Origin: Posidoniimonas corsicana
GTDB lineage: Bacteria; Planctomycetota; Planctomycetia; Pirellulales; Lacipirellulaceae
Direction: 5' to 3'
DNA length: 64,000 bases
Assembly (NCBI RefSeq): GCF_007859765.1
Contig: NZ_SIHJ01000002.1
Span: forward strand, 372,001-436,000
Notes under the pieces: model-generated
Told to the model about the DNA's origin: nothing
Database searches by the model: none
What the model saw: the letters and a program-made list of their open reading frames with translations, nothing else
Program-made: the position numbers and the translations under genes
Shown: piece after piece, positions 15,996 to 60,406 of the stretch
Numbering within the stretch: position 1 is the stretch's first letter
How the letters are laid out: each line of letters begins with the position of its first letter

Positions 15996-16083
15996 GGTAG
16001 TGGTGCGGGGTGGGTAGTTTGGTGGTGGGTGGCGGCCCGTGACCCGTCGGTTGGCCGCCCGTCGGTAAGTTTATCGCGGCCGG

Positions 16084-40506: not shown

Positions 40507-41493
40507 GTGGAAGATGAATCTGCCTCGTCCGCCCTGGTCACCGGGTGCGCCGGCCTCATTGCCAGTCGGACGGCCGACCTACTGCTCGACGCTGGTGTAC
40601 CGGTAGTTGGTGTAGACAACCTCAACGACTACTACGACGTCGCACTTAAGCTACACCGGCTAGACCGACTACGGTCGCGGAAAGGCTTCACGTTTGTAGG
40701 AATCGACATCGAGGACAAGCCGGCGGTCGATAAGCTGTTTTCCGAGCACGCGTTTAGTGTGGCCTACAATCTCGCCGCGCGGGCGGGAGTGCGGTACAGC
40801 ATTGAGAACCCTCACGTTTACTTCTCCACGAACGTGGTCGGCTCGCTCAACCTGCTGGAGGCAATTCGCAGGCACGGGACTAAGAAGTATGTGCTGGCGT
40901 CGACCTCGTCGCTCTATGCAGGCCAGCCAATGCCCTTTATCGAGACCTTACCGGTCAACACGCCGCTCTCGCCGTACGCCGCTTCTAAGAAGGCTTCCGA
41001 GGTCCTCGCCTATACGTACCACCAGTTGTTCGGCATCGACGTGTCGATAGTCCGCTACTTCACTGTGTATGGGCCTGCCGGCCGTCCCGATATGAGTGTG
41101 TTCCGCTTCATCAGATGGATCGACCAGGGCGACCCCATCCAAGTCTATGGCGACGGCTCCCAGGCCCGAGATTTCACCTACGTGGATGACATCGCCCGAG
41201 GCACCATCGACGCGTCACGGCCACTGGGGTACGAGATCATCAACCTGGGCGGCGGTAACAACCCGGTCACGCTCCTTGAGTTGATTGGCAAGATCGAGCG
41301 TCAACTGGACAAAGAGGCCGTCATCCAGCACCATCCATTCCACCGCGCCGACATGAAGGTCACGTGGGCCAACATCGACAAAGCGGCGCGACTACTCGAA
41401 TGGCGCCCCGAGGTCTCGCTGGACGATGGTATTGCAAGAACGGTCCGATGGTACCGCGACAATCTCCCATTTGCGGCAAAGATCAAGGTCTGA
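40507..41493 (+). CDS. NAD-dependent epimerase, UDP-glucuronate 4-epimerase type, 328 aa
   Basis: Extended SDR enzyme expected to convert UDP-glucuronate to UDP-galacturonate for the polysaccharide. Catalytic Ser in ASTSSLY and Y157-x-x-x-K161 are present, with RYFTVYGPAGRPDMS and GSQARDFTYVDDIA characteristic of the glucuronate branch. The glycine-rich loop reads TGCAGLIAS (12-20) instead of the usual TGxAGFIGS, losing the third glycine. GTG start at 40507. Single gene; nearest plus-strand gene is far upstream. Confidence 0.88.
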   Translation: MEDESASSALVTGCAGLIASRTADLLLDAGVPVVGVDNLNDYYDVALKLHRLDRLRSRKGFTFVGIDIEDKPAVDKLFSEHAFSVAYNLAARAGVRYSIENPHVYFSTNVVGSLNLLEAIRRHGTKKYVLASTSSLYAGQPMPFIETLPVNTPLSPYAASKKASEVLAYTYHQLFGIDVSIVRYFTVYGPAGRPDMSVFRFIRWIDQGDPIQVYGDGSQARDFTYVDDIARGTIDASRPLGYEIINLGGGNNPVTLLELIGKIERQLDKEAVIQHHPFHRADMKVTWANIDKAARLLEWRPEVSLDDGIARTVRWYRDNLPFAAKIKV

Positions 41494-41798: not shown

Positions 41799-42836
41799 TC
41801 AGGGTGCGTGCCGGACGATGAGAGGCCCGATCCGTCGTGACGCCCACAGCGGAAGTCTAGTCCAGACGCGCTGGGCCAAACCAAACTTCTCGCCAGCCGC
41901 GCCGGGGTCTTGGTCTTCCGCTTGTTTCAACGAGTGGCCCCACCAGGCGAGCGACGCCTCCTCCGCCCCCCACTGCTTCTTGAAGCGGTGTTGACCGCTC
42001 CCAACGCTGCTGCGTCCGAAATGGAACCACTCGTGACCGGCATCGCAGGAGTCCTTCAGCACGGCCCAATACATTCCGTGGTTTACGCACAGCGGGTTGA
42101 ACTCGCGGAGGCTCGAGGCCCACGGGATGTCGAGAGACCGGCCGTTGTGCAGCACGATCCCGGCTCCCACCGCCCTGCTCTGGAGCCTGATGCAGTAGAC
42201 CTCCGCGCAACTTCCCAGCCCGGCGACGAGCGTCTGGAAGAACCTGAGGCAGTGGGAAGGGCTCCCCAGGTCCCGCATGTTCTGAGAGTAGACCGAGTAA
42301 AAGTCTTCCAGCAGCTCGGCGCCGCCCCGTTCGGTGACCAGCCCCGACCGCTCCGCCTTTCGGACCTGGTTTCGCACCTTCGGCGAGAGTCGGCCCCACA
42401 ACGCATCCGCGTTCGACTCCAGGCGCAGCCGCATCAGCACCTTCGCGCCCCCCTGGCGAGCCCACCCAGGGGGGAGGTCACCGCCGCCCAGCGTCAGCGG
42501 CTGCTTGACGATCACCGAGTAGCCGGTCCCTAACTCGCCGGCCAGTCCCACCGCCCGATCCAACAGAGACGCCACAGCATCGGGGGCACCAACGGCGCCC
42601 GCCTCGTCAACCCAAGGAAGAGAGATCAGACGCCGGCCAAACAGTGGCGAAGACTGCTGCACGAGCGGCAGGAACCCGCGGGCTGCACCATCGAGCTCTG
42701 ACCGCAGGGCGTGAAACTTGAGCCCGTACACACCGCACGCGTCCTCCCACGCCGGGTGGTGGTAGATGCTCGTCGCAAACGCCAGCGCGGGGTCGGTTGG
42801 CTGATCGCCTCGGTCATTCATCTCTTGCACCGTCAT
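41799..42836 (-). CDS. FemAB-like GNAT protein, PEP-CTERM/EPS-associated, 345 aa
   Basis: Resembles the FemAB-related proteins that occur with PEP-CTERM polysaccharide loci. Indicators are IYHHPAWEDACGVYGLKFH at the start, ARGFLPLVQQSSPLFGRRLISLP (split across strands), SPKVRNQVRKAERSGLV, and at the end WFHFGRSSVGSGQHRFKKQWGAE. Fold is a double GNAT; aminoacyl or acyl transfer onto a sugar or peptide is expected but unproven. ATG 42836 lies 11 bp after the stop of the upstream glycosyltransferase. Last gene of the operon-like run 50447 to 41799. Confidence 0.82.
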   Translation of the reverse strand: MTVQEMNDRGDQPTDPALAFATSIYHHPAWEDACGVYGLKFHALRSELDGAARGFLPLVQQSSPLFGRRLISLPWVDEAGAVGAPDAVASLLDRAVGLAGELGTGYSVIVKQPLTLGGGDLPPGWARQGGAKVLMRLRLESNADALWGRLSPKVRNQVRKAERSGLVTERGGAELLEDFYSVYSQNMRDLGSPSHCLRFFQTLVAGLGSCAEVYCIRLQSRAVGAGIVLHNGRSLDIPWASSLREFNPLCVNHGMYWAVLKDSCDAGHEWFHFGRSSVGSGQHRFKKQWGAEEASLAWWGHSLKQAEDQDPGAAGEKFGLAQRVWTRLPLWASRRIGPLIVRHAP

Positions 42837-42846
42837 CAGAGTCGCT

Positions 42847-44028
42847 CTATACCCCCAACGATGCATAGACGTCGCGAATCTTTTCCATCCGCGACGAAAA
42901 GTTGTACTGGTCCTCAATGACTCGGCGCCCGTTGGCGGCAATATCCGCCCGCATCCTGGGGTCCGTGATGAGCTGGCAAATCGCCCCGGACAGCGCCTCC
43001 TCGTCCCCGATAGGAACGATCAGACCGCTGCGGCCGTCCTGGATCAGCCTCGGCACGCCAGCAACGCGCGTCGCGACGACGGGCGTCTCGACCGCCATCG
43101 CTTCGAGCGCCACGTTCGGCAGGCCCTCACGCAGGCTGCTGAGCGCGAAGAGGTCCATCGCCTCGAACCACTCCCTGGTATTGGACTGGAATCCCATTAG
43201 CCTAGCGTGCGCACCGAGTCCGGCCGTGTCAATCAGCGACTGCAGAGCCGTCCGTTGGTCGCCGTCGCCAAGGATCGCGAGCATTGGCTTCATACCCAGC
43301 ACGTGCAGTCGGGCAACCGACCTAACAAGCACGTCGAATCCTTTCTCCGGAGAAAGCCTCCCCACCCCCCCGATCAGGAACCCATCGGCCGGTAGCCCGA
43401 GTGCCTGCCTGGCCTCGCCAGGGCTGCGGCGGCGCCGGAACTGTTTGCAATCGATCGCGTTCTCGATCAACAGTCGCCTGTCCTCCCGGACGCCGATCTC
43501 GCTGCACTCTTCCAGCAGATCGGGCGACACACAGATGACTCGCTCATAGTGTTTGAGCGCCCAGCGGTCCAGCTTGTAGTAGAGCGGCGTGCGGCTAGTG
43601 TGGTGGACCCATCCGTGCACGGTGGTCACTAGACGCATGGGCCGCCACCGCCGCAGCAGGAGGCCCATCAGGTTGGTCTTGTAGTCGTGGCCGTGCCAGA
43701 CGCGCACATCTAACCGTCGGCACACCTCCAGTGCGCGGGACAGCACGCGCCAGTCGGCGGCGCCCCGGTCGTCGATCTCTTCCAGCGGCGCGCCCAATTC
43801 TTCGGCCCTGGCTCGGATCGCCTCAAAACCCGGGTCGTTTGGCGGTCGAAGATACATGCACGCGGAGTCGTATCCCAGGGAACGCAAGAACCGAGGCGAG
43901 TTGAGGATGGTCTTGTCCGGGCCGCCGCCCGACCCGGTGACGACCCGCGGGTGGAGAACCATCGGCATCTTGGCCGCGGACCCCGTGGCGACGCTTCGGC
44001 CCGACGTTGATTCTGGTTCGGTCAGCAC
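42847..44028 (-). CDS. GT4-family glycosyltransferase, 393 aa
   Basis: GT-B fold retaining glycosyltransferase. N-terminal Gly-rich RVVTGSGGGPDKT, middle VVTTVHGW, and the C-terminal donor-binding part with GGVGRLSPEKGFDVL, then SLREGLPNVALEAMAVETPVVAT (the E-x7-E region of GT4). Length typical. Its start overlaps the stop of the upstream glycosyltransferase by 7 bp, so the two are translationally coupled. It adds one sugar to the repeat unit; specificity unknown. Confidence 0.92.
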   Translation of the reverse strand: MLTEPESTSGRSVATGSAAKMPMVLHPRVVTGSGGGPDKTILNSPRFLRSLGYDSACMYLRPPNDPGFEAIRARAEELGAPLEEIDDRGAADWRVLSRALEVCRRLDVRVWHGHDYKTNLMGLLLRRWRPMRLVTTVHGWVHHTSRTPLYYKLDRWALKHYERVICVSPDLLEECSEIGVREDRRLLIENAIDCKQFRRRRSPGEARQALGLPADGFLIGGVGRLSPEKGFDVLVRSVARLHVLGMKPMLAILGDGDQRTALQSLIDTAGLGAHARLMGFQSNTREWFEAMDLFALSSLREGLPNVALEAMAVETPVVATRVAGVPRLIQDGRSGLIVPIGDEEALSGAICQLITDPRMRADIAANGRRVIEDQYNFSSRMEKIRDVYASLGV

Positions 44029-45218
44029 GCGGCCCTCTCGATCTCCACGAGGAAGGACCTAGCCTTCGCCTCCCATCCCTCTTGCTCCAGGCGGACCCGC
44101 GCGGCGGCCTGTGCCGCGGAGATCCCACCGTCGATTCGATTCGCGACTGCATCGACGAAGTCGTCCCGCGTCGAAACGAGGTCGAGGCAGTCTGACCACT
44201 CAGAGGTTGCCGGCAGGTCACGCGCAACCACCGGCAGCCCAGTCGCAAGGTACTCCTTGAGCTTCAGCGGCTGCATCGACCTGGTGACCGGCAGGTCCTT
44301 GTAGGGCATGACTAGCACCGAAGCGGAACGGGCAATCCCGGGCAAGCTCTCGTACGCAACAGCGCCGGTAGTCGACACACGCGGGTGCGACCGCAAACGC
44401 TTGTCGATCGTCTCAATCGGGCCTACAAGCACGACCGACCCGCGGTCAAGACGGTCCGCCAACGCCAGGACCCACTCGGTCTCAAGCCGCCCATCGATCA
44501 ACCCCCAAAAGACGGCTTGCGGCGCCGACGGGCCGGACCTTGCCACTGGTGGTTCAATAGCACTAGCCTTCCACAGGTCGAGTTCCACGCCGTGCGTGAT
44601 CAGCGTTGACTCTCGCCCCAGTTCGCCCATCCGTTGCTGCAGCGTCTGGCTCACAGTCACCACGTGGTCGACCCGCTCAACCAGCTTCGATTCCATCTCT
44701 CTAAGCGTTGTGCCGTCCAGGCCGGGCCAAAGTGAGAGGTCGTCAACGCAGTAATATAGCCAGCTGTCGACGTCGAGCGAGTCCGTCAAGTCTGCGACGA
44801 TTGGGAGGGTGGTGACCGCCACCAGGGGGCGCGGAAGGTGTGCCGCGGCCTGGTTGACCGCACGGACGAGCATCTTCTTATTAATCCATCGGTCGGCGGG
44901 GCGGCTGAACCAAGGCCACATGAGCGGGCTTAGCACGGAGGGGCCCGACTCTGTGCACGCTGGATCACTGCCCCGCTGGTCACCGCCGACCCACTCTCGG
45001 ATCTTTCCTGCGGCTCGGCAAACCGTCGAAAGGTCCACCTTCGGTGCGCGGGTGCCGATTGTGTTTACCCACAGCACCTCGCAGTCTGCCGGCAGCCTCT
45101 TGACCAGGTGCTGGCAGCTAGAAGGGTGACGGCCCCAGTCGTCCGAGAAGACTACCAGAGACTTCACGGCATTCCCTGACTGCGTCCAAGCGGGTTGTGC
45201 TTCCGCTTGGTCAGTCAT
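44022..45218 (-). CDS. Glycosyltransferase, family-1/GT4-like, 398 aa
   Basis: GT-B protein with the N-terminal VFSDDWGRHPSSCQHL motif and WVNTIGTR, WLYYCVDDLS, and a donor half with VFWGLIDGRL, VLVGPIE and LPVTRSMQPLKLKEYLATGLPVVA. This pattern is common in exosortase-associated glycosyltransferases. The start overlaps the stop of the SufS-like gene by 4 bp (ATGA type). Specificity unknown. Confidence 0.87.
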   Translation of the reverse strand: MTDQAEAQPAWTQSGNAVKSLVVFSDDWGRHPSSCQHLVKRLPADCEVLWVNTIGTRAPKVDLSTVCRAAGKIREWVGGDQRGSDPACTESGPSVLSPLMWPWFSRPADRWINKKMLVRAVNQAAAHLPRPLVAVTTLPIVADLTDSLDVDSWLYYCVDDLSLWPGLDGTTLREMESKLVERVDHVVTVSQTLQQRMGELGRESTLITHGVELDLWKASAIEPPVARSGPSAPQAVFWGLIDGRLETEWVLALADRLDRGSVVLVGPIETIDKRLRSHPRVSTTGAVAYESLPGIARSASVLVMPYKDLPVTRSMQPLKLKEYLATGLPVVARDLPATSEWSDCLDLVSTRDDFVDAVANRIDGGISAAQAAARVRLEQEGWEAKARSFLVEIERAAC

Positions 45219-46396
45219 CCGATCTGCGTCTGCGCGAGCTGTTCGATGACCGCGCAGGCCTTCTCGATATCGGAATGGTCGTTGTACGCCTGGAAGCTCA
45301 GCCGCAGCGTCGGCCGCAGCCCGAGCCGCTGGTGTAGGGGTTCAGCGCAGTGGAAACCGGACCGGACGCAGATATTGCCGCGTTGGCTCAGGACCCTCGC
45401 GGCCGCGTGGGACTCCCACCCGTCTACCGAGAGCGAGACGATGCCCAATTGTTCTTCTACATCGGCGGGGCCGTGGACGCGGACCCCTCTCACACCGCTA
45501 AATCTCTTAATCGCGGCAAGCGTCAGCGCCCTTGTGTGCTCAGTTAGATTCTCCCTACCAATCGATTCGAGGTAGTCGAGCGCCGTGGCCCAGCCGAGCA
45601 CTGACTCCACCGGAGGCGTGCCTGCTTCGAAGCGTCGAGGGGCAGGCTGCAGCCGCACGTCATCGGGGCTAACCGACTCGACCATGCCGCCCCCCCAGCT
45701 GATTGGCTTCAGTCGCGCTAGCGCCTCCGACGTGGCGACCAGCGCGCCGACGCCGCTGGGACCCAGCATTTTGTGGCCGCTGCAGGCGATGAAGTCGGCG
45801 CCGCACAAGTTTGGCTCAACCGGCAGGTGGCTCGCGCTCTGCGCCGCGTCCAGAAGCAGCAGGGCCCCGTGCCTATGGGCGACTTCCGCCAACTCGGAGA
45901 CGGGCTGGATCACACCCAAGACGTTACTTACGTGCGACACGGCAACCAGATCGGCCGGAGCGGACAACAGCTCCTTGTCGAGGTCCTCCGCGGAGACCCG
46001 CCCGCACGGGTCGCACGGCAATGTCCGGCAGGACTGCACGTTCGTCCACGGCAACAGGTTACTGTGGTGTTCGACGATCGTCGTCACGACGCTGTTGAGA
46101 TCGGGCCAACCGTTCCGCACAAGGTTGATGGCGCCCGTGGCGCCGGTCGTGATGACCACCTCGTCGTCGGCCACGCCAAACCAGCGGGCGATGGTGGCCC
46201 TCGCATCATCGAAGCGGGCGGTCAACTCGACGCCTCGGCGGTGGACCCCGCGGTAGATGGCCGACGCTCCTTCGGTGAGGCACCACGAAACCTCATCGAC
46301 GACGCAGCGCGGCTTGAGCGTGGTAGCCGCGCTGTCCAGGTAGACCAACGTCGGGTCGCAAGTGAACGCCAGGAAATCGTCGCGGACACTGAGCAC
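45215..46396 (-). CDS. Class-V aminotransferase, SufS/CsdA-like cysteine desulfurase, 393 aa
   Basis: PLP enzyme. YLDSAATTLKP at the N-terminus, VEHHSNLLPW, LDAAQSASH, and the PLP-binding SGHK with Lys209. The desulfurase active-site loop RSGFHCAEP carries Cys350, so the sulfur-accepting residue is intact. It lies in a polysaccharide operon between a CapK-like ligase gene (3 bp away) and a glycosyltransferase (4-bp overlap), not with Fe-S genes. It could supply sulfur or act as a lyase on a pathway intermediate. Selenocysteine lyase or an isopenicillin-epimerase-like activity are alternatives. Confidence 0.88.
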   Translation of the reverse strand: MLSVRDDFLAFTCDPTLVYLDSAATTLKPRCVVDEVSWCLTEGASAIYRGVHRRGVELTARFDDARATIARWFGVADDEVVITTGATGAINLVRNGWPDLNSVVTTIVEHHSNLLPWTNVQSCRTLPCDPCGRVSAEDLDKELLSAPADLVAVSHVSNVLGVIQPVSELAEVAHRHGALLLLDAAQSASHLPVEPNLCGADFIACSGHKMLGPSGVGALVATSEALARLKPISWGGGMVESVSPDDVRLQPAPRRFEAGTPPVESVLGWATALDYLESIGRENLTEHTRALTLAAIKRFSGVRGVRVHGPADVEEQLGIVSLSVDGWESHAAARVLSQRGNICVRSGFHCAEPLHQRLGLRPTLRLSFQAYNDHSDIEKACAVIEQLAQTQIG

Positions 46397-46399
46397 GTT

Positions 46400-47863
46400 C
46401 TATCCCGCGTTGACGGCGCCGGCCGTTGTAAGAGGCTTTGCGGGCAACGCCTTGACCCAGCGGAACTTGCCGCCCGGCTCCGGGCTGATACTCCTGGCGG
46501 TCCGGATTCGCAGACGCACTTCTCGACCCAGCCGATCGCGGAAGTAGGAAGACAGCTGCCCCTCGTCGGGCCGAAGCCCCTGGCGGATGACGACCGTTAT
46601 TTCAAGCAAGTCCTCGCGGCGCTCGACGAGCTGGAATTGATCGACCCACGGAAGCCTGTATATGTGCTCGGCGATCTCGTTGCTTGTGACCCAATTCCCC
46701 TGACTATCGCGCAGCGCGTCCTGCAGGCGCCCCTCCACCCTAAGCCGGCGCGACAGCCTACCGCACTGGCATTCGCCTTCCAATAGACGCCCCAGGTCGC
46801 CCACACGATAGCGGATGAGCGGCATAGCGTGGTTCGCCAGATCAGTCACCACCACCTCACCGACCTCGCCTGGCGGCGTCGGGGCCCCCTGGCTGTCTAG
46901 CACCTCGACGATAAACAGGTCCTCCAGCACATGCATGCCGTCAGAATCTCCACACGAGAAAGCCACGGACCCCAGCTCGGCGCTTCCATAGTCGTCCCAG
47001 AATCTTCCGCCAAAAGCAGTTTCGAGCGTTTCGCGCATGTGTGGCGTCGCGCCCGAGCCCAGCGGCTTGATAACCGGAATCTCAAGGTCGATGCGTCCAC
47101 GCTCTAGTACCCGTTGGGCAATCTGGTAAAGGTACGTCGTCAGGCCCTTCAACAAAAACGGCCTGTCGCGTTGAAGCCTGTCGATATAGTAGTCAAGTCG
47201 AGCCGTACCTGGATGACTGCCCCCCGCCCCAAACGGCGGATAGGTCTTGCGGTTATAGACCCAGTTGCGCTCTACGAGGCCCCGCAGATCACGGTAGGTG
47301 TTGGCGTCTCGCCAGCGATTGTACCGAAGAATCCCTAGAAGGTGTCGAAGCACCCCCTCGTCTCGCTCCCCTTGCTCCCCGCAAACAACGTCGCAGATAT
47401 CGGGCGGTATCTCTACCATCCGCATGCCCAAGCGGTAGCCCGATGCACGCAATGTCACGATGTTTGCGGCGCGGATAGCGTCACGCTTGGCAAAGTCGTG
47501 GACGCAGATCATCCGCTGCGTGGTGCCCCGTGTGGCGGCAAATCTGAGGTCCGATTGGGGCGAAGATGGGTGGATCGCACGATCGGGGAACGCCGCCGCA
47601 AGCTCTGACTTGCTGACGGGCGGGATTCGGCCTGTGTCAACAGTTTCCAAATCTCCCGCCTGCGAGGCGAGCGCGAGACGCTCCTTCCAGAACTCAACAC
47701 CCGACGCGCAACGCACAAGACGATCTTGCTTCTCGCGCTGCAACTGCGACACCTCAGTTGCCGTCTGCCTGCAATCGATCTCTCTCGCCAGAGTCCATGC
47801 ATTGCTCCTGGACGCTCGCTGCAGGTTTGGAAGGAAGAGGGATTCAACGAATAGGGATTTCAC
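46400..47863 (-). CDS. CapK/PaaK-like adenylate-forming enzyme, 487 aa
   Basis: Resembles phenylacetate-CoA ligase-like proteins of capsule loci (CapK). Supporting motifs are FWDDYGSAELGSVAFSCGD (adenine-binding YG-S/T-x-E region), PLIRYRVGDLGRL (the Asp that binds ribose), and EGRLQDAL in the hinge. The phosphate-binding loop is unusual: AATRGTTQRM in place of SSG-T/S-TG-x-P, so adenylation is plausible but not certain. GTG 47863 lies 4 bp after the stop of the upstream gene; the frame open to 47977 overlaps that gene and is not used. Confidence 0.82.
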   Translation of the reverse strand: MKSLFVESLFLPNLQRASRSNAWTLAREIDCRQTATEVSQLQREKQDRLVRCASGVEFWKERLALASQAGDLETVDTGRIPPVSKSELAAAFPDRAIHPSSPQSDLRFAATRGTTQRMICVHDFAKRDAIRAANIVTLRASGYRLGMRMVEIPPDICDVVCGEQGERDEGVLRHLLGILRYNRWRDANTYRDLRGLVERNWVYNRKTYPPFGAGGSHPGTARLDYYIDRLQRDRPFLLKGLTTYLYQIAQRVLERGRIDLEIPVIKPLGSGATPHMRETLETAFGGRFWDDYGSAELGSVAFSCGDSDGMHVLEDLFIVEVLDSQGAPTPPGEVGEVVVTDLANHAMPLIRYRVGDLGRLLEGECQCGRLSRRLRVEGRLQDALRDSQGNWVTSNEIAEHIYRLPWVDQFQLVERREDLLEITVVIRQGLRPDEGQLSSYFRDRLGREVRLRIRTARSISPEPGGKFRWVKALPAKPLTTAGAVNAG

Positions 47864-47867
47864 GCCC

Positions 47868-50447
47868 TTACCACATGTAGCTGTAGAGGCCGAGGCTCCC
47901 GGCGACCAGAACGACCAATGCACCGGCGCCCGCCAGAAGCTTTGCACGGCGGATCGCCTGCTTCTTCTGGGGGACAAACCTCCTTCTCACACCAAGGTCG
48001 AGTTTTGGTCCTTCCGGCAACGGAGAGGAGTCAACGTTCTTCCGAAACCAGTCGTAGGATTGACCGCATCCCAAGAGTAGCGCCAGCGGCCTGCAGAAGT
48101 GAGCGGTGGGCATCTCAGAAAGCGTAGAAACAGACTCGTGGAAGAAGTAAGCTCCCCGCTCTTGAAACGTTCTTCGCAAGTCTGAATCGACGTGCCTTGC
48201 CGCGTAGTGGAAGACCTCACTCTTCCTTAGGTCTTGCGCCGCCCAGGTCTCAGTCGGATACTCAAGGATCTCGGGCCTGTCGAGGTACGGATACTCCTTA
48301 TCGGCCATCCAGGTGGCGTAGTGGACCAAGCAAGCCCGGCCGTAGGCGTATTGCTGATCGATCTCACCAAGATCTACCTTGACCTCCAAGTACCGACCGA
48401 GGGCCTGCAGGTACAAGTTGTAGTACCAACGCCATTCCGCATTCAGTAGGTCGAGCGCATCCAGGTCGTCGCGAGGGTCAATCACGCGGTACATCAACTC
48501 TTCAACGCGTTCAATGTACTTCCGGTCCCCGGTCAGCTCGAAGGCCGCCAGTAGTGTCTCGCTTGCGTTTCCCGGCCCGCGCCCAGGCCCGTGGTAGTCG
48601 GGCGTTCCGCTCGCGCTGCTAAGCCCCGTGGGAGCCCACGAGAGCCATCGGAAAGGTGTCGCTGAGCCATCTTCCAGCGAGAGTACCCAGTCACCGAGCT
48701 CAACTACCACTTCTCGGATGGCTTCACAACCCGTGAGGTAGTAGTAGAGCATGAGACCCCGAGCGTAGGCGTGTTCAGCACATGGACCACCACCTACGGT
48801 CCCGGTCGGGTAGCTCCGGTGGTTTGCTTTGCCTGCATCGACGTAGTGGACAGTGTGCCAGAACAACCCGTGGTTGTAGGCGAGCTTGTCTTCGTCTGTG
48901 TGATAGACATCAATGTCGGACACGTGCCAAACCATGTCCTCCATCAACTCGAACCACCGGCGGTCGCCACCCCTCATGTAACGGACACCGAGGCCATTGA
49001 TCAGGTCGTACTGATTGTTCCAGTGCGATACGAGCGGTGGATCCGGCTCGCTGAATGCGGCTTCGTGATCGCCGTACACGTCGCCGAAGTGCCTCCAGCC
49101 GTACTCGTCGATCGCCTCTCGCTTGGCAAACAGCGATGAGGGGCCATCGATGGCCCTATCGACAAGCGCGGCATAGCCATCGCAGGTCTCTTCTGACAGG
49201 GGAGTAAGATGCCGCACTGCACAAGTGCTTTCGACGTGCCTATCCAATGTTCGTGGGAGCGGCGGTTGCCGTGCCGCGTCGAGAAGTCCACCCACTATCG
49301 CGGCGTCGCCTCTAGCGATCCAAAACGTATGGGTCTTACGCTCGCCGCCCTGCAACTCGTGGCAACCTGACTCAACTTTGGGAAACAGATCTAGAGTGAT
49401 CCCATCTCGGTCGGCCTCAAGCGACTTTGGAAAGTTTTGCCAGAGCTTCTCTTGGTAGACTCCGATAACCGGCGAACGACCGCTGTGTAGCCTCACGATC
49501 GGGTCAGCCCGCGTGCCCTCGTTGAGTTCATCGCCTACTCTTGTTCGATAGCCTCGGCAGTTAGTACTGACACGTCCATCGCGATCGATGTGGTTGGAAC
49601 AATCCCACGCCTCCCCCCCACTCGAGTACTGCGTGACAGACACTAATTCGGCTGCGTGCACGGGATCGGTCGGACTTGTCGAGACACTGGCGTAATTGCA
49701 GACTTGCTCGGCTGCGACTCGAAGCCGCGCTCGGTCGAATAATGCCGAGCCGTGGTCGCCGAGTTCCCAGATTCCTCCCACGTGCTGCGCGCGTCGTGGG
49801 TTGTGTAAGGTAAATCGCCAACGCTGCAGGTCGGCGTGAGCCCAGTAGTCGACTTCAGCGCTCCAGCGGAGGTCCCCCTGCCCTTGCCGGTCGACGCACC
49901 TTCCCGCAAGCCGAAGTCGCGCACGTAGAGGACCACGGTCAATGGGAACGACCGTATCAACTCTCGGGCTGCAGGCAAGAGCCCCTGACGTTTCAATTTG
50001 GACTGCAATACCTTGGGATAGACTCTCACCAACATAGTGCCTGATCGTCCGAAAGGGCGACACAATTTCCACCCCATTGGACAATTCCCCTAACCGCACG
50101 ACACCTTCAAGCAAATCGCCACCTTCGCTGCGCTGTTGCTCCCCGGCAACCAGGGTGGCGCTCGATCCGTTGTCTATCCAGTCTAGGAGCACCCACTTGA
50201 GACTTTGATCAGGCCATCGCGCGAGGCACCTGCACTGGACACCTTTCGGCTTGCCTTTGCCATCCTCCAGGCGAAGTTCTTCGACACTATGCGTCGCACC
50301 CAACGGAAGCGGGACACCCAGGGAACACGGCCAAGAGACATCGCTGAGAATCCGATTAGCTAGAATCGGCATACGGAACAACGAAGTTTCCGTCGGCTTG
50401 CACTCTCCAGTCGGCTCAGATTGCGACAGCTCGGGCATCTCTCTCAT
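47868..50447 (-). CDS. PcRGLX/YetA-like RIFT-barrel protein with C-terminal membrane anchor, 859 aa
   Basis: The N-terminal ~90 residues (SLGVPLPLGATHSVEELRL and CLARWPDQSLKWVLLDW) match the RIFT barrel of PcRGLX/YetA-type exo-rhamnogalacturonan-lyase-like proteins. The centre and C-terminal part form an alpha/alpha-barrel-like region (YNHGLFWHTVHYVDAGK, EHAYARGLMLYYYLTG, PGNASETLLAAFELTGDRKY). No signal peptide. The last ~25 residues (AKLLAGAGALVVLVAGSLGLYSYMW) are one hydrophobic helix behind basic residues, a tail anchor. Family enzymes cleave uronic acid polysaccharides; here a cytoplasm-facing role is implied. First gene of the tight run to 41799. Confidence 0.75.
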   Translation of the reverse strand: MREMPELSQSEPTGECKPTETSLFRMPILANRILSDVSWPCSLGVPLPLGATHSVEELRLEDGKGKPKGVQCRCLARWPDQSLKWVLLDWIDNGSSATLVAGEQQRSEGGDLLEGVVRLGELSNGVEIVSPFRTIRHYVGESLSQGIAVQIETSGALACSPRVDTVVPIDRGPLRARLRLAGRCVDRQGQGDLRWSAEVDYWAHADLQRWRFTLHNPRRAQHVGGIWELGDHGSALFDRARLRVAAEQVCNYASVSTSPTDPVHAAELVSVTQYSSGGEAWDCSNHIDRDGRVSTNCRGYRTRVGDELNEGTRADPIVRLHSGRSPVIGVYQEKLWQNFPKSLEADRDGITLDLFPKVESGCHELQGGERKTHTFWIARGDAAIVGGLLDAARQPPLPRTLDRHVESTCAVRHLTPLSEETCDGYAALVDRAIDGPSSLFAKREAIDEYGWRHFGDVYGDHEAAFSEPDPPLVSHWNNQYDLINGLGVRYMRGGDRRWFELMEDMVWHVSDIDVYHTDEDKLAYNHGLFWHTVHYVDAGKANHRSYPTGTVGGGPCAEHAYARGLMLYYYLTGCEAIREVVVELGDWVLSLEDGSATPFRWLSWAPTGLSSASGTPDYHGPGRGPGNASETLLAAFELTGDRKYIERVEELMYRVIDPRDDLDALDLLNAEWRWYYNLYLQALGRYLEVKVDLGEIDQQYAYGRACLVHYATWMADKEYPYLDRPEILEYPTETWAAQDLRKSEVFHYAARHVDSDLRRTFQERGAYFFHESVSTLSEMPTAHFCRPLALLLGCGQSYDWFRKNVDSSPLPEGPKLDLGVRRRFVPQKKQAIRRAKLLAGAGALVVLVAGSLGLYSYMW

Positions 50448-51778: not shown

Positions 51779-53341
51779 CTAGCGGCTAAAGACTTGACTA
51801 AGTAACAGTGTGGCTACGGCGAACACAGACAATGCCGCAACGGTTGGTTCAGGAATTACGACGGCACCTGAGTTCTCGTATAGCGCAGCTCTCCACTCGA
51901 CATAGTCAGCCTCATCAACAAAGCCATCCCAATTCGCGTCCGCACCTTCTCCAGGCGTCACGGACTGTCCTCTACTCATTCGCCAAAAGATAAAGTCTCT
52001 CGCGTCAACTTGGCCATCCCGGTCAAAGTCGCCCGGACGGAAGTCGATATTGGAGACAATCTCGTACTCGGCAATCACGGGAAAAAATCTACTTCCGGGT
52101 CGCGTGCCCCACGCCTCGTTGAAGAACACGTACAGCCTCTCGCGTTCAGCATCCCATTCCATACCCATGGGGCGTCCATGAATGCCGTGCGTCGGGAACT
52201 CAAATCGGCTTCCCTTTACTTCCCAAGTCTTGAGTTCACCACTCGCGATGCGCGCGAGATCATCTGGATCATAGACGTAGAGGACTGATGCTTCATAACC
52301 GGGCGGATCGTTTGCGAACTCAGTATCTTTGCTCGCTCCGCGGTTGGGTGCTCCCTCGGGAGAGTAGAATTTCTTTGGATCGGCTACCGTAAAGAGGCTT
52401 GTCTGCGCTCGGTAGTCTAAAGTGCCTCGCCCGGTAGCAACCGCGTAGAGCAGACCTGAGAGGCCGTCATGCTCCACCCAAGCCGGTCCGCCATTCACTT
52501 CTTCGGCCTGCCAATAGCCAACACCGTTCTCCGCTGGAAACGACCACTGAAGGGCGCCGCCGGTTTTGTCTTGCAGATAGCGTCCAAAATAGTTTGGGTC
52601 TCGCAATTCAACCTTTTCACGCCCACCATGCACGGGAAAGTGCAGAATCTCCCGTGCCTCCATGTCTTCAAGGGATATGGTCGCCAGTGACGGCCCCAGA
52701 GACGAATTAAGGGTGTCGTAGCCACCCGCGGCGATCCCAATTGCTTGTCCAGATACGTGCCGCTCAGCCCACTGCGTCGGAACCCGAGTGAACCCCGCCC
52801 CGTAGATCTGATGTGACACCGACGGTATGTATCGCTCTCTCGCTCCACTCTTAGGGTCAATCGTTAAAAGCCAGTCTGGGGTATCGGGATTTCGATACCA
52901 TGACCGTGCAGACACTATCAGCTTGCCACTGGATTCATCCCAAAGGACCCCCCGTGGACCGCCTCTAAAGTAGTTATTCTCGACGTCTGAAAAAGTCTCC
53001 CAACTCTGCACGGGGTCCAGCAGAGGCCAATCATTGGGGTCACCAGCGGCACCAACCGCTCCGTCTGCCCGAAGTTCGTAGATCAGCCCGGTATGCATGT
53101 GGTGATGTATGAAGAACCGTAGTTCACCGTCAACACGTCGGGAACTTAGAGCTCCACTGCTCCACCGCGTATTCTTACCTTTACTGCCAACTGCTAGCTG
53201 CGGCACACGATAACCACCAACAAGCTTTAAGTTCTTTGCTCCAATCAGATGCTCTTGCGAGTATGCATTTGCCGTAAGCCAACAAGCTGATATCGCCAGT
53301 ACTCCAATCTTCAACACCACTCGCGTGAAATAGCTAACCAT
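51779..53341 (-). CDS. Exported PEP-CTERM protein with dockerin-like calcium loops, 520 aa
   Basis: Signal peptide of ~26 residues (LKIGVLAISACWLTANAYS). The body is beta-rich with propeller-like repeats (LSGLLYAVATGRGTLDY, PMGMEWDAERERLYVFF). Around residues 430-480 there are two dockerin/EF-hand loops: DFDRDGQVDARDFIFW and DANWDGFVDEADYVEW. The C-terminus is a classical PEP-CTERM: PEP at 497-499, hydrophobic helix VAALSVFAVATLLLS, basic end SR. AAGGAGAG precedes the ATG. Likely a substrate of the exosortase that works with this polysaccharide locus. Confidence 0.92.
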   Translation of the reverse strand: MVSYFTRVVLKIGVLAISACWLTANAYSQEHLIGAKNLKLVGGYRVPQLAVGSKGKNTRWSSGALSSRRVDGELRFFIHHHMHTGLIYELRADGAVGAAGDPNDWPLLDPVQSWETFSDVENNYFRGGPRGVLWDESSGKLIVSARSWYRNPDTPDWLLTIDPKSGARERYIPSVSHQIYGAGFTRVPTQWAERHVSGQAIGIAAGGYDTLNSSLGPSLATISLEDMEAREILHFPVHGGREKVELRDPNYFGRYLQDKTGGALQWSFPAENGVGYWQAEEVNGGPAWVEHDGLSGLLYAVATGRGTLDYRAQTSLFTVADPKKFYSPEGAPNRGASKDTEFANDPPGYEASVLYVYDPDDLARIASGELKTWEVKGSRFEFPTHGIHGRPMGMEWDAERERLYVFFNEAWGTRPGSRFFPVIAEYEIVSNIDFRPGDFDRDGQVDARDFIFWRMSRGQSVTPGEGADANWDGFVDEADYVEWRAALYENSGAVVIPEPTVAALSVFAVATLLLSQVFSR

Positions 53342-53535
53342 GTCGACTCTCCTTCTGTCGCGAGCAAACACCGTGCCCAGGGTCTGCAACCTCGATTTTG
53401 CTTAAGCTACGGATACGCGGTGGCTTGTTCTGTACCGTGCTCGCCACTCCTGCTATCAAAGGCTGCGGCCGCAAAGCGAAATCGAGCGTAGCATCCAACT
53501 GTCGGTCATCGTTGTGGTCAAGAAAGATCGCGTCA

Positions 53536-56014: not shown

Positions 56015-57067
56015 CTAACCGATTCTCAATCCCTCACGCACTGCAGTGGATCCCCTCCCCAACACACATTGATCTATTAGTTCATCACAGCGGGCTTCGC
56101 GTTCTTCGAACCAAGACGCGTCGGCATAGCTTTTCCACCGTCCGACGCTCCTGGTGCTCACTTGACCTATGCCAGGCAGTTGGTCCATCCCCTCTAACTT
56201 AAAGACATCGCCCAAGCTCTTCATCACCGCCCTAGGCTCAGACACAAGCGATTCGTAGCTCACGTCATAGGCAGAATGATTCGATGCGAATACGAAGGAC
56301 AACCTTGAAACGATGTAGGACAATTCATAGGGGTGAAGCTGCTTGACCTCGGCGAATAGTGGTATGTATCGTGCCAAATCGTTTGCCCAGGAGACCAGGT
56401 AAAACTCGTCCGACCTCGCAAAGTTCGCAACTGTAGCCGTGGTCGGCACCGGCTTCTGCCTAAGGAATGTTGAAATCCACTGATCTCGCGGATCCCGGTG
56501 AAGGTGAACCAGCAATACGTCGGGAAATCGGCTGGCGATCCAACCTAGCCGGAAGTCAAGCCGGTTGAACTGCAGCACGGGAAAACCCGGCGCCTCATCG
56601 ACCAGAAGCCTGAGGTACTCATAGAGTGTGTGGGCAGGCACCGTTGCGGGAAGGTAGAGATCTCTCGAGGACCACCATTCTTCCCAAGGCACCTCCACGC
56701 CTGCAAACCGGTTGTACTCTTCCCAGTACTGCTCAACCCCGCGGTGGGTGTTGTCGACGCGTTGGCCCCGAGCCGCGGGATCGAACCATCTGCGTGGGTT
56801 TAATGGCTCGTAGTACGCTGTGAGTTGCCTATGCTCGCGCAAAAGCTTCCATAGCAGCGTCGAACCGCTACGGAATCGCGCGGTTATGAAAGCTGCTGGC
56901 GGAGCTGCCTCAGGAAAAGCCCGGCGATCAATCGTGCCTGACCAACCCGTCGGCTGGAACCCTGGAGGAACCTCCGCCGGCGCCGTCAGGCTGGACTGAA
57001 GAGCCGCCTTCATGACTCCTCGCTCGAGCCCCCACTGCGCGATGCGTCTGACTACAGTCCTGAACAT
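56015..57067 (-). CDS. Sulfotransferase-family protein, 350 aa
   Basis: PAPS-dependent sulfotransferase fold. The 5'-phosphosulfate loop FRSGSTLLWKLL is near residue 65, and the 3'-phosphate site VHLHRDPRDQWIS near residue 190. Likely sulfates a hydroxyl of the glycan. It is coupled with the O-ligase gene downstream (adjacent stop/start) and lies 42 bp below the next sulfotransferase gene. Acceptor unknown. Confidence 0.87.
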   Translation of the reverse strand: MFRTVVRRIAQWGLERGVMKAALQSSLTAPAEVPPGFQPTGWSGTIDRRAFPEAAPPAAFITARFRSGSTLLWKLLREHRQLTAYYEPLNPRRWFDPAARGQRVDNTHRGVEQYWEEYNRFAGVEVPWEEWWSSRDLYLPATVPAHTLYEYLRLLVDEAPGFPVLQFNRLDFRLGWIASRFPDVLLVHLHRDPRDQWISTFLRQKPVPTTATVANFARSDEFYLVSWANDLARYIPLFAEVKQLHPYELSYIVSRLSFVFASNHSAYDVSYESLVSEPRAVMKSLGDVFKLEGMDQLPGIGQVSTRSVGRWKSYADASWFEEREARCDELIDQCVLGRGSTAVREGLRIG

Positions 57068-57109: not shown

Positions 57110-58051
57110 CTAGCGAAACTTCCCATGTGAACTGCTAAGATCCCAAGTGGCTGTCTTGCCTACGAATGACCAGCATCGCCTTCGAATGCCATACCAGCGG
57201 GACGCCCGCTGCCATCTGTACTCCCACACTAGGCGGTTGTGCAAACGGTACATCTCCTTTCTAAGAGCCGATGGCCCCGGGACGCTCGACTCTGGCTTGT
57301 AACCTAGCTGGGTCATGACTTCCGCCGTTGCTGCTTCGACGTTGGCCAGCTGCCGACCGCTAAGAGATTCTCGCCACTTCTCGTTAATGGACGGATCTGG
57401 CGGGCGGCGAACGTTCCGATTGCCCTCATGAATCCGGATTCCACTATCCCGTTCATGATACCGAATCATTGCCTCTTCCATCGGCAACCCCACGAAGTCA
57501 CAAACACGTTGCAGCTCGTTGGCAAACGCCTTTACGAGGTCTTCGTACCGGAGAAGCAGGCATCGATTCTGATACTGTTGCCGGAATTCCAACTGCCCTT
57601 GCACCTCAGCGGCCCAGCGCTCGCCCGCCGAATACCAGTTGCAGCTCGTTCCACGCTCCAGAAAAGACCTGGCAACAGCGCGGGGATCCCGAACGATTAT
57701 GATGAACTTCACGCTGGGCATCGACTCCGCATAGTCGATCAGATAATGGGATACCTCTGGGTCTTTTAGGCACCACCTCGGCTTGCCGGCATCGGCCGCC
57801 GCCTGTGACATACGCGCGTCAAACAATTGCACAGGCGACGCAATCTCCGAGAGTGTTGCTGAGGCCCCCCCCAGCCCTAGCCCGTCCAGCCTTTCACTAA
57901 GTTCTCCCACGCTGCAGCTTCCACTAAACAACAGACGGTGCACTTCATGCAGCTCATTTCGACACCACAATCCGGTGGAGCCGGACAGCGCCTGGAATAG
58001 AAGCGTCGTTCCTGACCGGCGCGTACCAGTTATGAGTAAGGCGGGGCTCAA
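57110..58051 (-). CDS. Sulfotransferase-family protein, 313 aa
   Basis: The P-loop TGTRRSGTTLLFQAL starts at residue ~8, so there is no signal or anchor before it. The 3'-phosphate motif FIIIVRDPRAVARSF follows with FLERGTSCNWYSAGERW; C-terminal part contains DFVGLPMEEAMIRYHE and a helical end. A second, distinct sulfotransferase; likely modifies another position of the glycan. Confidence 0.87.
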   Translation of the reverse strand: MSPALLITGTRRSGTTLLFQALSGSTGLWCRNELHEVHRLLFSGSCSVGELSERLDGLGLGGASATLSEIASPVQLFDARMSQAAADAGKPRWCLKDPEVSHYLIDYAESMPSVKFIIIVRDPRAVARSFLERGTSCNWYSAGERWAAEVQGQLEFRQQYQNRCLLLRYEDLVKAFANELQRVCDFVGLPMEEAMIRYHERDSGIRIHEGNRNVRRPPDPSINEKWRESLSGRQLANVEAATAEVMTQLGYKPESSVPGPSALRKEMYRLHNRLVWEYRWQRASRWYGIRRRCWSFVGKTATWDLSSSHGKFR

Positions 58052-58550: not shown

Positions 58551-59393
58551 CTACCATCCGTAGTCGGTGGCATAACCGAAGTCGATCAGCTCTCTCCCGG
58601 CAATCCACTTGAATTGTGCCTTTCGCCACCATGACCAGGCACGCCACTTGTCAATTGGTCTAAAGCCCGCCGGCTTCGGAACCTGCTCCCAATGGAGTGC
58701 TCGCTTGCTTCCTCGATGTGTTGAGCTCCCCCTAAGCGGCAGCATGTCGAACTTTGTCCAATCGAACTCCCCATCGTCCACTCCCAAGAACGCGAGGATT
58801 TGCGGGATACACCGGCGTGGATGTTCTACCAGATCTTCATAGCGAACAAACGTCCAATTCTTACCTGCCGCCCCCCGATGAGTTGCCATAAACTCAAGAA
58901 GCGTTTTCGCACCGTTCCTCCACTGCCTCATCCAGTGACGAGGCGGCGCGTATGTGAAGCTGCGGGAAGCGGACTCTACCGTGTCACGACCGTCGCGAAC
59001 AATGATGATGAGCTTTGCCGATGGAAACAACAAATCAAAGTTCTCAATCCCCCACGGTCGAGGCGTCTTCATGATCAGCCTCGTGTGCTTACTCTCGCAA
59101 TGCTGACGAATGAACTCGAGCAGGCCACGCCCAAGGTAGGAAACCGCCGCACTACGCTGTTCCGCACTGATGCGAGTCTTCCATCTGTTGTCACTTCGAT
59201 TCACATACTCGACCAGCAAGTCCGAGTGTTCCAGCAAGTAATCTTCCGTTAAAGCAGGCAGCTCCCACCCTGGGAGAAGCTGTATGATGTCTGCGAGAAA
59301 GTTGGTGCCAGACCGGTTCATTGCGCCTACGATGAACGCGGGCGGATAAGAGGAGGCGGCTAGCTTCGAAGACGCGTCTAATTCAGCACGCAC
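58551..59393 (-). CDS. Sulfotransferase-family protein, 280 aa
   Basis: The P-loop FIVGAMNRSGTNFLADI begins about 20 residues in; 3'-phosphate site IIIVRDGRDTVESASRSF, then FVRYEDLVEHP and FLGVDDGEFDW. GTG at 59393 lies 3 bp after the stop of the upstream glycosyltransferase gene; ATG 59558 would overlap that gene by ~160 bp and add 55 residues of low quality, so it is not used. TTG 59399 is the other candidate. Probably sulfates the glycan. Confidence 0.82.
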   Translation of the reverse strand: MRAELDASSKLAASSYPPAFIVGAMNRSGTNFLADIIQLLPGWELPALTEDYLLEHSDLLVEYVNRSDNRWKTRISAEQRSAAVSYLGRGLLEFIRQHCESKHTRLIMKTPRPWGIENFDLLFPSAKLIIIVRDGRDTVESASRSFTYAPPRHWMRQWRNGAKTLLEFMATHRGAAGKNWTFVRYEDLVEHPRRCIPQILAFLGVDDGEFDWTKFDMLPLRGSSTHRGSKRALHWEQVPKPAGFRPIDKWRAWSWWRKAQFKWIAGRELIDFGYATDYGW

Positions 59394-59395
59394 AA

Positions 59396-60406
59396 TCAAT
59401 TGCTCTGAATCGCTAAGAAGGGGTACTTTGCCAAGGACGCGAGATAGGTCTTCCAGTACGGGAGGTGCAATGGTCGGTACTTCAGCCCCTGCCGAAAGCA
59501 CTTGAATGCCGAACGATAACGCCGATGCCGCCAGTAGACGCCGTATCCTAACCTCCAAAAATACTCACGAGACAGCCGCTTACGAACTGCAGAATGCAGA
59601 TGAACCGGAAGGTCCGGAACCGACTGAATATCTCGAAAGAGCTCGATCAATTCGCACTCGTTGTCTATCGCCTTGGAGATCGAACTAGCACTCGATGCAT
59701 TCGATATGTTATCGGTGTGCACTGAATACTCGAGATGGACGTCATTGATGTACGCTAGCTGCGCACCCGCGAGTAGTGCACGGATAGGATACTGCTGGTC
59801 CTCACAAACTCTATAGGTTCCACTAAACCGTACAGTATCGAGAACCCATCTGCGAATTAGCGACGTTTGCTGGCTACACTCTAACCCATTGAGAATTGCG
59901 CATTCGAGCGTCGAAGCATCGTCGAAGATATTCACTTCACCTACACGACGCACGTTCAGTTCGAGGAACGGGCGAGGCCTATCATCACTGTAGAATTTGT
60001 TCTCTACGAGCGTTTCTCGAGAAATCGAGTCCACCCGTCTCAAGGAACCGTAAACCCAATCCACTTCTGGATTGCTTTCTAGTGCGTCAACACAAGCTTG
60101 AAGGTGATAAGGTCGCCACGCGTCGTCGCTGTCAAGAGGCGCCACGTACTTACCCCTTGCTAGCTCTGCACCTCGGTTGCGGCAGTAGAAAAGCCCTCGA
60201 TTCTCATGCCGCGAGTAAGTAACTCGTCCAGCGACGTGGCTCGTAAGCCCCTCTACTACAGCCCTGGTATTGTCGCTGCTACCATCGTCGACGATTATCA
60301 ACTCCCAATCCGTGAAAGTCTGCTCTAGCACCGAGTTGATTGAGGCCTCAATTAAATGAGCTCTGTTAAACGTCGGAATGTACACAGACACGAGCGGCGT
60401 GCTCAT
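59396..60406 (-). CDS. GT2-family glycosyltransferase, 336 aa
   Basis: GT-A fold: PLVSVYIPTFNRAHLIEASINSVL at the start, LIIVDDGSSDNT, then GKYVAPLDSDDAW (DxD metal site) and YRVCEDQQYPIR (catalytic base region). C-terminal ~100 residues are helical. An inverting transferase of the repeat unit; specificity unknown. ATG 60406 is chosen over TTG 60436. Confidence 0.92.
   Translation of the reverse strand: MSTPLVSVYIPTFNRAHLIEASINSVLEQTFTDWELIIVDDGSSDNTRAVVEGLTSHVAGRVTYSRHENRGLFYCRNRGAELARGKYVAPLDSDDAWRPYHLQACVDALESNPEVDWVYGSLRRVDSISRETLVENKFYSDDRPRPFLELNVRRVGEVNIFDDASTLECAILNGLECSQQTSLIRRWVLDTVRFSGTYRVCEDQQYPIRALLAGAQLAYINDVHLEYSVHTDNISNASSASSISKAIDNECELIELFRDIQSVPDLPVHLHSAVRKRLSREYFWRLGYGVYWRHRRYRSAFKCFRQGLKYRPLHLPYWKTYLASLAKYPFLAIQSN

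Follow-up and report, generated by a model that had tools for sequence, protein, structure and literature searches.

A recurrent CapK-like/SufS-like gene pair in an exosortase-linked exopolysaccharide cluster of Posidoniimonas corsicana: a possible two-enzyme route to thiocarboxylic acids

The thioacid cassette of thioplatensimycin is formed by ptmA3 and ptmU4; homologous pairs are found in the qbs, pdt and ytk clusters with a wide bacterial distribution, and such two-gene thioacid modules are common to different pathways, as stated in the excerpted part of the published account (PMC6006322). LarE adenylylates a carboxyl group and, in T. maritima, is recharged by IscS to give a thiocarboxylic acid, a logic similar to that of thiouridine synthesis according to the excerpt of the corresponding report (PMC9283937). 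A stretch of 64,000 nucleotides of Posidoniimonas corsicana DNA (assembly GCF_007859765.1, contig NZ_SIHJ01000002.1, positions 372,001 to 436,000), referred to here as the window, contains a six-gene run in which a CapK/PaaK-like adenylate-forming protein is encoded next to a SufS-like cysteine desulfurase (Table 1; other loci and genomes are designated by L and G numbers). No description of such a CapK/SufS pair was found in the titles and abstract openings listed, up to a capped number, by searches of an open-licence library, which is a weak absence.

The two genes constitute a pair with clade-specific features on both partners at every orthologue locus checked. At all of the 23 other distinct loci of the clade, mostly from Planctomycetota, the SufS-like gene follows the CapK-like gene downstream and in the same orientation; a SufS neighbour was present at none of 65 ordinary CapK loci used as a control, some of which are short contigs. 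At a single locus of the 23 (L041/L066) an open reading frame (ORF) of 420 amino acids without a Pfam family lies between the two genes. Duplicate loci were merged before counting (L041=L066, L043=L069, L044=L071, L191=L065, L192=L074, L193=L076 and L194=L075, as well as L200=L079, an ordinary CapK and no pair locus), and the CapK gene of L067, interrupted by a frame break, was excluded, leaving 23 aligned CapK proteins from 24 loci, window included.

When the whole CapK-like protein was searched against 297 genomes of the class, five genomes besides the own one gave strong full-length matches (E 4e-117 to 2e-65), all five with a SufS-like gene adjacent or one ORF off. Some CapK match was obtained in 259 of the 297 genomes, the remainder beginning at 6e-39, and among those listed the weaker matches covered mostly the C-terminal half only. 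In a tblastn scan of genome contigs, the figures of which refer to the best 80 of 412 confirmed CapK loci, 15 loci at E<=4e-59 were followed by a jump to 2e-34; SufS was found beside CapK in 15/15 loci above the gap and in 0/65 below it, the split between orthologues and ordinary CapK having been set before the neighbour genes were inspected. Profile searches at E<=1e-90 gave 4 matches among 392 genomes of the phylum and 11 among 396 genomes of the order (own genome included), one of the latter (G652) being an ordinary CapK outside the pair clade, and added six new pair loci. By their titles, carriers of the pair include Rhodopirellula, Phycisphaera, other Planctomycetota, one member of Krumholzibacteriota and one of Armatimonadota; the pair is absent from the single genome of the same genus in the sample.

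The CapK-like protein showed no Pfam match at E<=0.01 and partial NCBIfam PaaK-type matches far under the cut-offs. Its AlphaFold2 (AF2) model, with a mean confidence (pLDDT) of 90.5, was superimposed on PaaK1 (2y27) with Z 29.3 over 384 residues, a root-mean-square deviation of 3.4 and 25% identity. In this type of enzyme, the ANL motif A4 comprises the aromatic residue of the acyl-binding pocket, according to the excerpted text of PMC8388817. Where ordinary relatives carry the aromatic A4, the window protein and its orthologues carry an insertion and the consensus IPPxxCxxxCG, with C157 and C161 in 23/23 aligned orthologues (window included) and in 0/18 ordinary homologues, and with P153-P154 in 17/17 orthologues where 15/18 ordinary homologues have W-G. 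Searched for as a pattern, the cysteine motif was present in 15/15 pair loci and, at that place, in 0/65 others, L108 having one match elsewhere; L180, which reads PANIC, escapes the strict pattern P..C...C, and the alignment shows both cysteines there. The motif is positioned just past the strand that comes after the P-loop helix, and in the profile alignment with E. coli PaaK it corresponds to KIHVAYGYG, part of it being aligned with a gap. Since the near-universal CapK/PaaK cysteines C304, C365 and C367 are lost in L068 and L180 (in L180 by eye) while C157 and C161 stay, the latter two look more constrained than the usual cysteines of the family.

An earlier note on this DNA, made from the letters alone, had called the P-loop of the CapK-like protein degenerate. 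The TRGTTQR sequence is non-canonical, but R117 is present in 17/17 orthologues and 0/18 ordinary homologues, and the variant is a signature of the orthologue clade. K466, Y292-G293, Y352/D356 and G378-R379 were found in 17/17 orthologues and E296 in 15/17, and Y292, G293, Y352, D356, R379 and K466 are adenylation positions common to the 17 orthologues and the 18 ordinary homologues; we take these positions to represent motifs A5, A7, A8 and A10. Because the variant is a clade signature and these motifs are kept, degenerate is not to be taken as dead, and inactivity of the enzyme through its P-loop was rejected. The positions specific to the clade in the same comparison were P93, R117, F124, R127, P153, P154, C157, C161, G162, Y244 and G269, with no clade-specific His, Asp or Glu able to complete a metal site.

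The PaaK fold and the kept adenylation residues would also suit an acyl-CoA (coenzyme A) ligase, or an amide- or ester-forming enzyme, supplying activated acyl groups to the FemAB-type protein or the glycosyltransferases of the operon; C157 and C161 would then be joined in a disulfide of structural or redox-regulatory function, and SufS would provide sulfur for something else or keep the thiols sulfurated. PaaK relatives do form CoA thioesters or amides, and FemAB-type relatives were detected near 4 of the 23 pair loci. Such an explanation is nevertheless unlikely, as it does not account for SufS being the sole window gene beside CapK in 23/23 loci, which the FemAB-type, glycosyltransferase and PcRGLX-like genes are not (several contigs being short). 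The A4 motif and the P-loop, moreover, have diverged jointly.

In the SufS-like protein, Lys209 and Cys350 are both present, as the earlier note had pointed out. The equivalents of E. coli SufS H123, D200, Q203, H225, K226, R359, C364 and R379, eight positions which we take to be catalytic, were kept in 18/18 pair SufS; these counts of 18 refer to the pair SufS of the tree, the later six (L180 and L195-L199) being present only in a 23-row alignment that omits L076, a near-copy. Five residues at E. coli positions 109-113 and five at 132-136 are absent from 18/18 pair SufS versus 0/9 housekeeping proteins, and H362 is replaced by F or Y in 18/18 versus 0/9. The two deletions and the H362 change are what an altered sulfur-acceptor surface would be expected to give. 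All 18 pair SufS grouped in a single clade (support 98/95) of a 44-sequence tree, beside the housekeeping SufS clade (99/99; E. coli SufS and part of CsdA), the joining branch being weak (81/54). The window protein scored under the TIGR01979 cut-off (362.2 versus 475.1 bits); pair copies were below it in 6/6 genomes, and a separate SufS above it was present in 8/8. The genome of P. corsicana has a housekeeping SufS copy elsewhere, which follows an ORF recognised by eye as SufU-like. The enzyme is thus neither a housekeeping SufS nor the sole copy, a combination which the earlier note had held to refute its proposal, and a stray housekeeping SufS was rejected. A SufE (PF02657) was detected in 2 of the 11 pair genomes searched, the own genome being among the 9 without one.

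A different pyridoxal phosphate (PLP) chemistry, such as that of a C-S lyase, a desulfinase or another elimination enzyme acting on an amino acid or an acyl-cysteine produced by the CapK-like protein, is a still more doubtful explanation. Class-V relatives with other names do exist, namely FGM3 (9x4u) and, through a weak match, an EgtE-type enzyme, and the H362 replacement together with the two deletions marks an altered pocket or partner surface. A simple lyase would have no need of Cys350; yet 18/18 retain the persulfide cysteine together with every one of the eight catalytic positions, unlike the own-genome homologue L058, which is without the Cys loop. A profile combining six pair SufS with three further homologues of the own genome matched SufS structures first.

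Since the pair recurs and its PLP enzyme is distinct from housekeeping SufS, a sulfur step at the locus is likely. The earlier note's suspicion of a sulfur-containing product was sound to that extent; an unusual sugar, an amino-acyl product and modification of the glycan found no clear support. The coupling of a desulfurase to an adenylating enzyme with two invariant pocket cysteines and no new metal ligand suggests a persulfide relay onto an acyl-adenylate. Cys350 of the SufS-like enzyme would take up sulfur from L-cysteine in persulfide form, and this sulfur would pass straight to the CapK-like enzyme, at Cys157 or Cys161, with no SufE, SufU or ThiS-type carrier involved. The CapK-like enzyme would adenylate a carboxylic acid in its PaaK-type active site; the enzyme-bound persulfide would attack the acyl-adenylate and the second cysteine would resolve the intermediate, giving a thiocarboxylic acid and adenosine monophosphate. 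That the two proteins form one such sulfur-insertion module is a tentative proposal, with somewhat less than an even chance of being correct. What the data show is the pairing, the identity of the two clades, the conserved residues and the predicted fold; the desulfurase activity, the sulfur transfer to C157/C161, the substrate, the thiocarboxylic nature of the product and its link to the glycan are inferred.

Several points weigh against the sulfur-insertion module. The placement of the cysteines at A4 depends on sequence and profile alignment across a gapped region, and the AF2 confidence drops to 77 in block 151-160 and to 58 in block 161-170, around the motif. The two cysteines of CxxxC may instead form a disulfide with a structural or regulatory role. 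One of the two patterns used to search the genome contigs held the motif, which biases the sample toward it, although L077 was found without matching that pattern, and the CapK profile of the phylum and order searches includes the motif columns. The distribution of the pair is rare and patchy (6/297 class, 4/392 phylum and 10/396 order genomes, the own genome included each time). In favour of the module, tree distances of CapK and SufS correlated at 0.80 over 23 pairs, the best of 2000 permutations reaching 0.32, a figure which comes from two quick trees and in part reflects the species tree. Likewise in its favour, the 10 order genomes with a true CapK orthologue were the same 10 in which the pair profile gave a SufS score of 563-600 bits, against 491 for the next match; this gap is partly built in, because nine of the ten top matches were used to train the profile, and at most 4 candidates were scored per genome. 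A last point against it is that besides CapK and SufS no ORF matching a window protein at E<=1e-10 was present in L068, L073, L075, L076, L077 and L078.

In the window, the pair belongs to six intact, closely packed ORFs on the minus strand, the successive junctions being a gap of 4, a gap of 3, an overlap of 4, an overlap of 7 and a gap of 10 bases, the last of which assumes the ATG start at 42836 for the FemAB-type gene. The tight arrangement and the family assignments of the six genes given in the earlier note were confirmed, the latter with Pfam and NCBIfam, and from the spacing the six genes would constitute one transcription unit. Both glycosyltransferases of the operon are GT4-type. The FemAB-type protein matched Acetyltransf_6 (51.8 versus a cut-off of 22), was just under the cut-off of the FemAB Pfam family (21.9 versus 24), and was under that of TIGR03019, the XrtA-associated FemAB model (242.2 versus 260.35 bits). 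Upstream on the same strand are genes for a methyltransferase, a protein with a sub-threshold dockerin match, a glycosyltransferase and a Wzy/O-ligase-like protein, and farther upstream four sulfotransferases, an ABC exporter ATPase and others. Past the window edge, the run continues with an ABC permease, an stp1 glycosyltransferase above cut-off, a sugar phosphotransferase, a tyrosine autokinase, an exosortase and an UpxY/RfaH-like antiterminator; other than the stp1 glycosyltransferase and the exosortase, these genes are mostly under the model cut-offs. Because the same-strand run extends upstream to the exosortase, about 30 kb away from the pair, the six genes form the end of an exosortase-linked exopolysaccharide cluster of roughly 38 kb. 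The exosortase and antiterminator genes stand at the head of the run, and the antiterminator may control the whole cluster. Four sulfotransferase genes are included, and the polysaccharide is therefore probably sulfated as well. The protein with the sub-threshold dockerin match has a 24% relative in L064, and the epimerase encoded convergently with the operon has a 34% relative within the equivalent operon of L045.

In this setting, the product of the sulfur-insertion module would feed the exosortase-linked exopolysaccharide pathway, for example as a uronic or hydroxy acid converted to its thio acid, or would alternatively act as a donor for the FemAB-type transferase. The complete proposal, a carrier-free thioacid cassette in which the acyl-pocket motif of a PaaK-fold enzyme has become a sulfur-accepting cysteine pair recharged directly by a dedicated desulfurase for the ATP-dependent synthesis of a thiocarboxylic acid, and which would lead to an exopolysaccharide or an envelope glycan with thio acids in the exosortase-linked loci of planctomycetes, is held with more reserve than the module itself, as possible rather than likely.

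The neighbourhoods of the other loci are divided on this point, the counts over the 23 being lower bounds, as several contigs are short. Relatives of the TuaH-like glycosyltransferase were detected near the pair in 6/23 loci (tblastn E<=1e-60), close GT4 relatives (E<=1e-100) in 3/23 and Wzy/O-ligase relatives in 8/23; besides the four loci given above, a FemAB relative was present at a fifth, in its differently placed stretch L069. Because no polysaccharide gene like those of the window was seen at six loci, the product need not be the glycan and might at those loci serve another pathway. The same sulfur insertion could then yield a soluble metabolite or cofactor unrelated to the glycan, its operon position being incidental, which is somewhat unlikely. 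The six loci (L068, L073 and L075-L078) favour it, the neighbours scanned there including members of VWA/FecR, PAP2, 3-keto-disaccharide hydrolase, flavin adenine dinucleotide (FAD) oxidase, DUF72 and hydrolase families (5 ORFs in L075, 4 in L068, with the FAD oxidases, and 3 in L077, with the hydrolases), and L073, L075, L076 and L078 have a common gene neighbourhood different from that of the window. It is countered by L045, in which nearly the full order CapK-SufS-GT-GT4-epimerase-FemAB (GT, glycosyltransferase) is preserved, by L197 and L199, which are without close relatives of the other window genes and still carry glycosyltransferase-like ORFs, and by an exosortase that shares the contig of the pair in 10/10 testable genomes, at a distance of 18-47 kb. 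That test covered 11 pair genomes, of which G265 was untestable with its pair on a 27-kb contig; the genomes of L068, L073 and L075-L078 are outside the 11. In L075 the pair is preceded by the gene of a long VWA/FecR-type protein and followed by that of a PAP2 protein, and the PAP2 side continues with 3-keto-disaccharide hydrolase and Gfo/Idh/MocA genes.

Beside the pair, L069 (2866-6123) has an acyl-carrier-like protein, a LarA-like hydroxyacid racemase and an acyl-CoA ligase in a row, the ligase matching TIGR03098 at 401 bits, below cut-off; L070 carries similar-sized ORFs, including one of about equal length at the LarA-like position. This row is perhaps a hydroxyacyl donor system for the glycan. 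The LarA-like gene of L069 and the identical reaction class would also fit a replacement of LarE by the pair in nickel-pincer cofactor synthesis. Some match to PF09861 (LarA-type), in many cases weak, was obtained in all 11 pair genomes. A match above the cut-off of TIGR00268, presumably the LarE family, was found in 11/11 pair genomes, which largely refutes this substitution; it is highly improbable and was rejected.

The earlier note had counted the PcRGLX-like protein, the CapK-like protein and the SufS-like enzyme as a trio whose recurrence should be sought, and had treated the six-gene run as one unit. The CapK-SufS order recurs in all 23 other loci, while a PcRGLX-like homologue is near the pair in 6/23 and its gene directly upstream on the same strand in two (L042 and L064); it adjoins the pair on the opposite strand in L044, L045 and L074 and lies about 6 kb upstream in L196. 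The arrangement thus does recur, contrary to the other outcome that the earlier note had set as refuting its proposal. With so few PcRGLX-like neighbours the trio was rejected as a unit, and neither it nor the six-gene run but the pair is the unit, PcRGLX being an accessory. PcRGLX-like (PL26) lyases combine an N-terminal RIFT barrel with a C-terminal alpha/alpha toroid. The window protein, which we take to be PL26-type, scored above the cut-off of PF19501 (32.1 versus 22.1) and below that of PF21346 (20.4 versus 23.8), and gave 0 matches at E<=1 by phmmer against solved structures. Its AF2 model is of low confidence (pLDDT 58.3). A hydrophobic C-terminal stretch, predicted as a helix in this low-confidence model, was seen in an alignment of six rows, two of them from one genome, and suggests a membrane-anchored enzyme.

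Table 1. Positions of the CapK/SufS pair, of its diagnostic residues and of the surrounding genes (window coordinates unless a locus is named).
Feature	Position	Strand	Remarks
CapK/PaaK-like adenylate-forming protein, proposed persulfide-accepting thiocarboxylate synthase	46400..47863	-	487 amino acids, GTG start; AF2 model, fold, clade signature, SufS partner
IPPDICDVVCG motif, residues 152-162, at the place of ANL motif A4	47378..47410	-	Cys157 47393-47395, Cys161 47381-47383
Variant P-loop TRGTTQR, residues 111-117	47513..47533	-	in place of canonical [T/S]SG[T/S]TGxPK
Lys466, equivalent of the A10 adenylation lysine in ANL enzymes	46466..46468	-	17/17 orthologues, 18/18 ordinary homologues
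SufS-like cysteine desulfurase, dedicated partner	45215..46396	-	393 amino acids, GTG start; Aminotran_5 8.3e-105
Lys209, PLP Schiff-base lysine	45770..45772	-	18/18 pair members, 9/9 housekeeping-type; invariant in 23 rows
Cys350, persulfide cysteine	45347..45349	-	18/18 pair members, 9/9 housekeeping-type; invariant in 23 rows
PcRGLX-like protein with hydrophobic C-terminal helix (predicted), accessory	47868..50447	-	859 amino acids; PF19501 above cut-off
TuaH-like glycosyltransferase	44022..45218	-	398 amino acids; Pfam and NCBIfam matches
GT4 glycosyltransferase	42847..44028	-	393 amino acids, GTG start; Pfam and NCBIfam matches
FemAB/GNAT-type acyltransferase near XrtA-associated type	41799..42836	-	345 amino acids from ATG; 380 from upstream TTG at 42941
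Nucleotide-sugar epimerase/dehydratase	40507..41493	+	convergent with operon
Protein with sub-threshold dockerin match	51779-53389	-	C-terminus like a PEP-CTERM sorting signal, by eye
Four sulfotransferase-family genes	56015-57067, 57110-58051, 58551-59558, 63202-63990	-	same cluster
Exosortase	L211 (G000:C2:435001-454500) 14633-15802	-	PF09721 match; 155.8 bits versus 8TM_EpsH cut-off 105.55; own cluster
UpxY/RfaH-like antiterminator	L211 (G000:C2:435001-454500) 15790-16479	-	below cut-off

The arrangement of the pair in distant relatives suggests an undescribed two-enzyme route for sulfur onto an acid. If the proposal is true, it would represent another protein solution for the conversion of a carboxylic into a thiocarboxylic acid, with two genes and no sulfur-carrier protein, in genomes whose titles name three phyla, and would account for a sulfur enzyme in a polysaccharide operon. 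A CapK protein with PPxxCxxxC next to SufS would then be a signature for finding thio-acid metabolites or thio-modified glycans in genomes, and some of the planctomycete proteins that resemble SufS or phenylacetate-CoA ligase may have their place in a different pathway.

Compared with the known systems, LarE/IscS and ptmA3/ptmU4 are precedents with other proteins. The window pair resembles PtmA3/PtmU4 in being a compact two-gene cassette with an acid-activating enzyme and, as proposed here, in the thiocarboxylic class of its product. PtmA3/PtmU4 uses CoA activation, a two-domain type III CoA-transferase encoded beside an acyl-CoA synthetase and sulfur-carrier machinery, whereas the pair consists of a PaaK-like enzyme with its own cysteine pair and a cysteine desulfurase, and no CoA-transferase family was found among the Pfam matches of the six genes and four upstream genes. 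With LarE/IscS the pair would have in common that a carboxyl group is first adenylylated at the expense of ATP and then receives sulfur, desulfurase-charged in T. maritima; LarE is a PP-loop (SGGxDS) sulfur insertase, which in T. maritima uses a 4Fe-4S cluster, whereas the CapK-like protein has the ANL fold, and a LarE-family gene is separately present in the pair genomes. The fold and the adenylation positions are alike in the PaaK/CapK phenylacetate-CoA ligases and exopolysaccharide CapK proteins, from which the window clade differs in the R117 P-loop, in PPxxCxxxCG plus an insertion in place of A4 and in the SufS partner at every locus seen. All catalytic positions of the SufS/CsdA group II desulfurases are shared, and the pair SufS differs from them in its score below the TIGR01979 cut-off, its own clade, the two deletions, the change of H362 to F or Y and an own genome without SufE. 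In common with the XrtA/PEP-CTERM exopolysaccharide locus (PMC1569441), the cluster has an exosortase and an stp1-type glycosyltransferase above cut-off, the tyrosine autokinase, FemAB and O-ligase types of that system being below cut-off here; none of the XrtA-system models matching at this locus describes a CapK/SufS pair.

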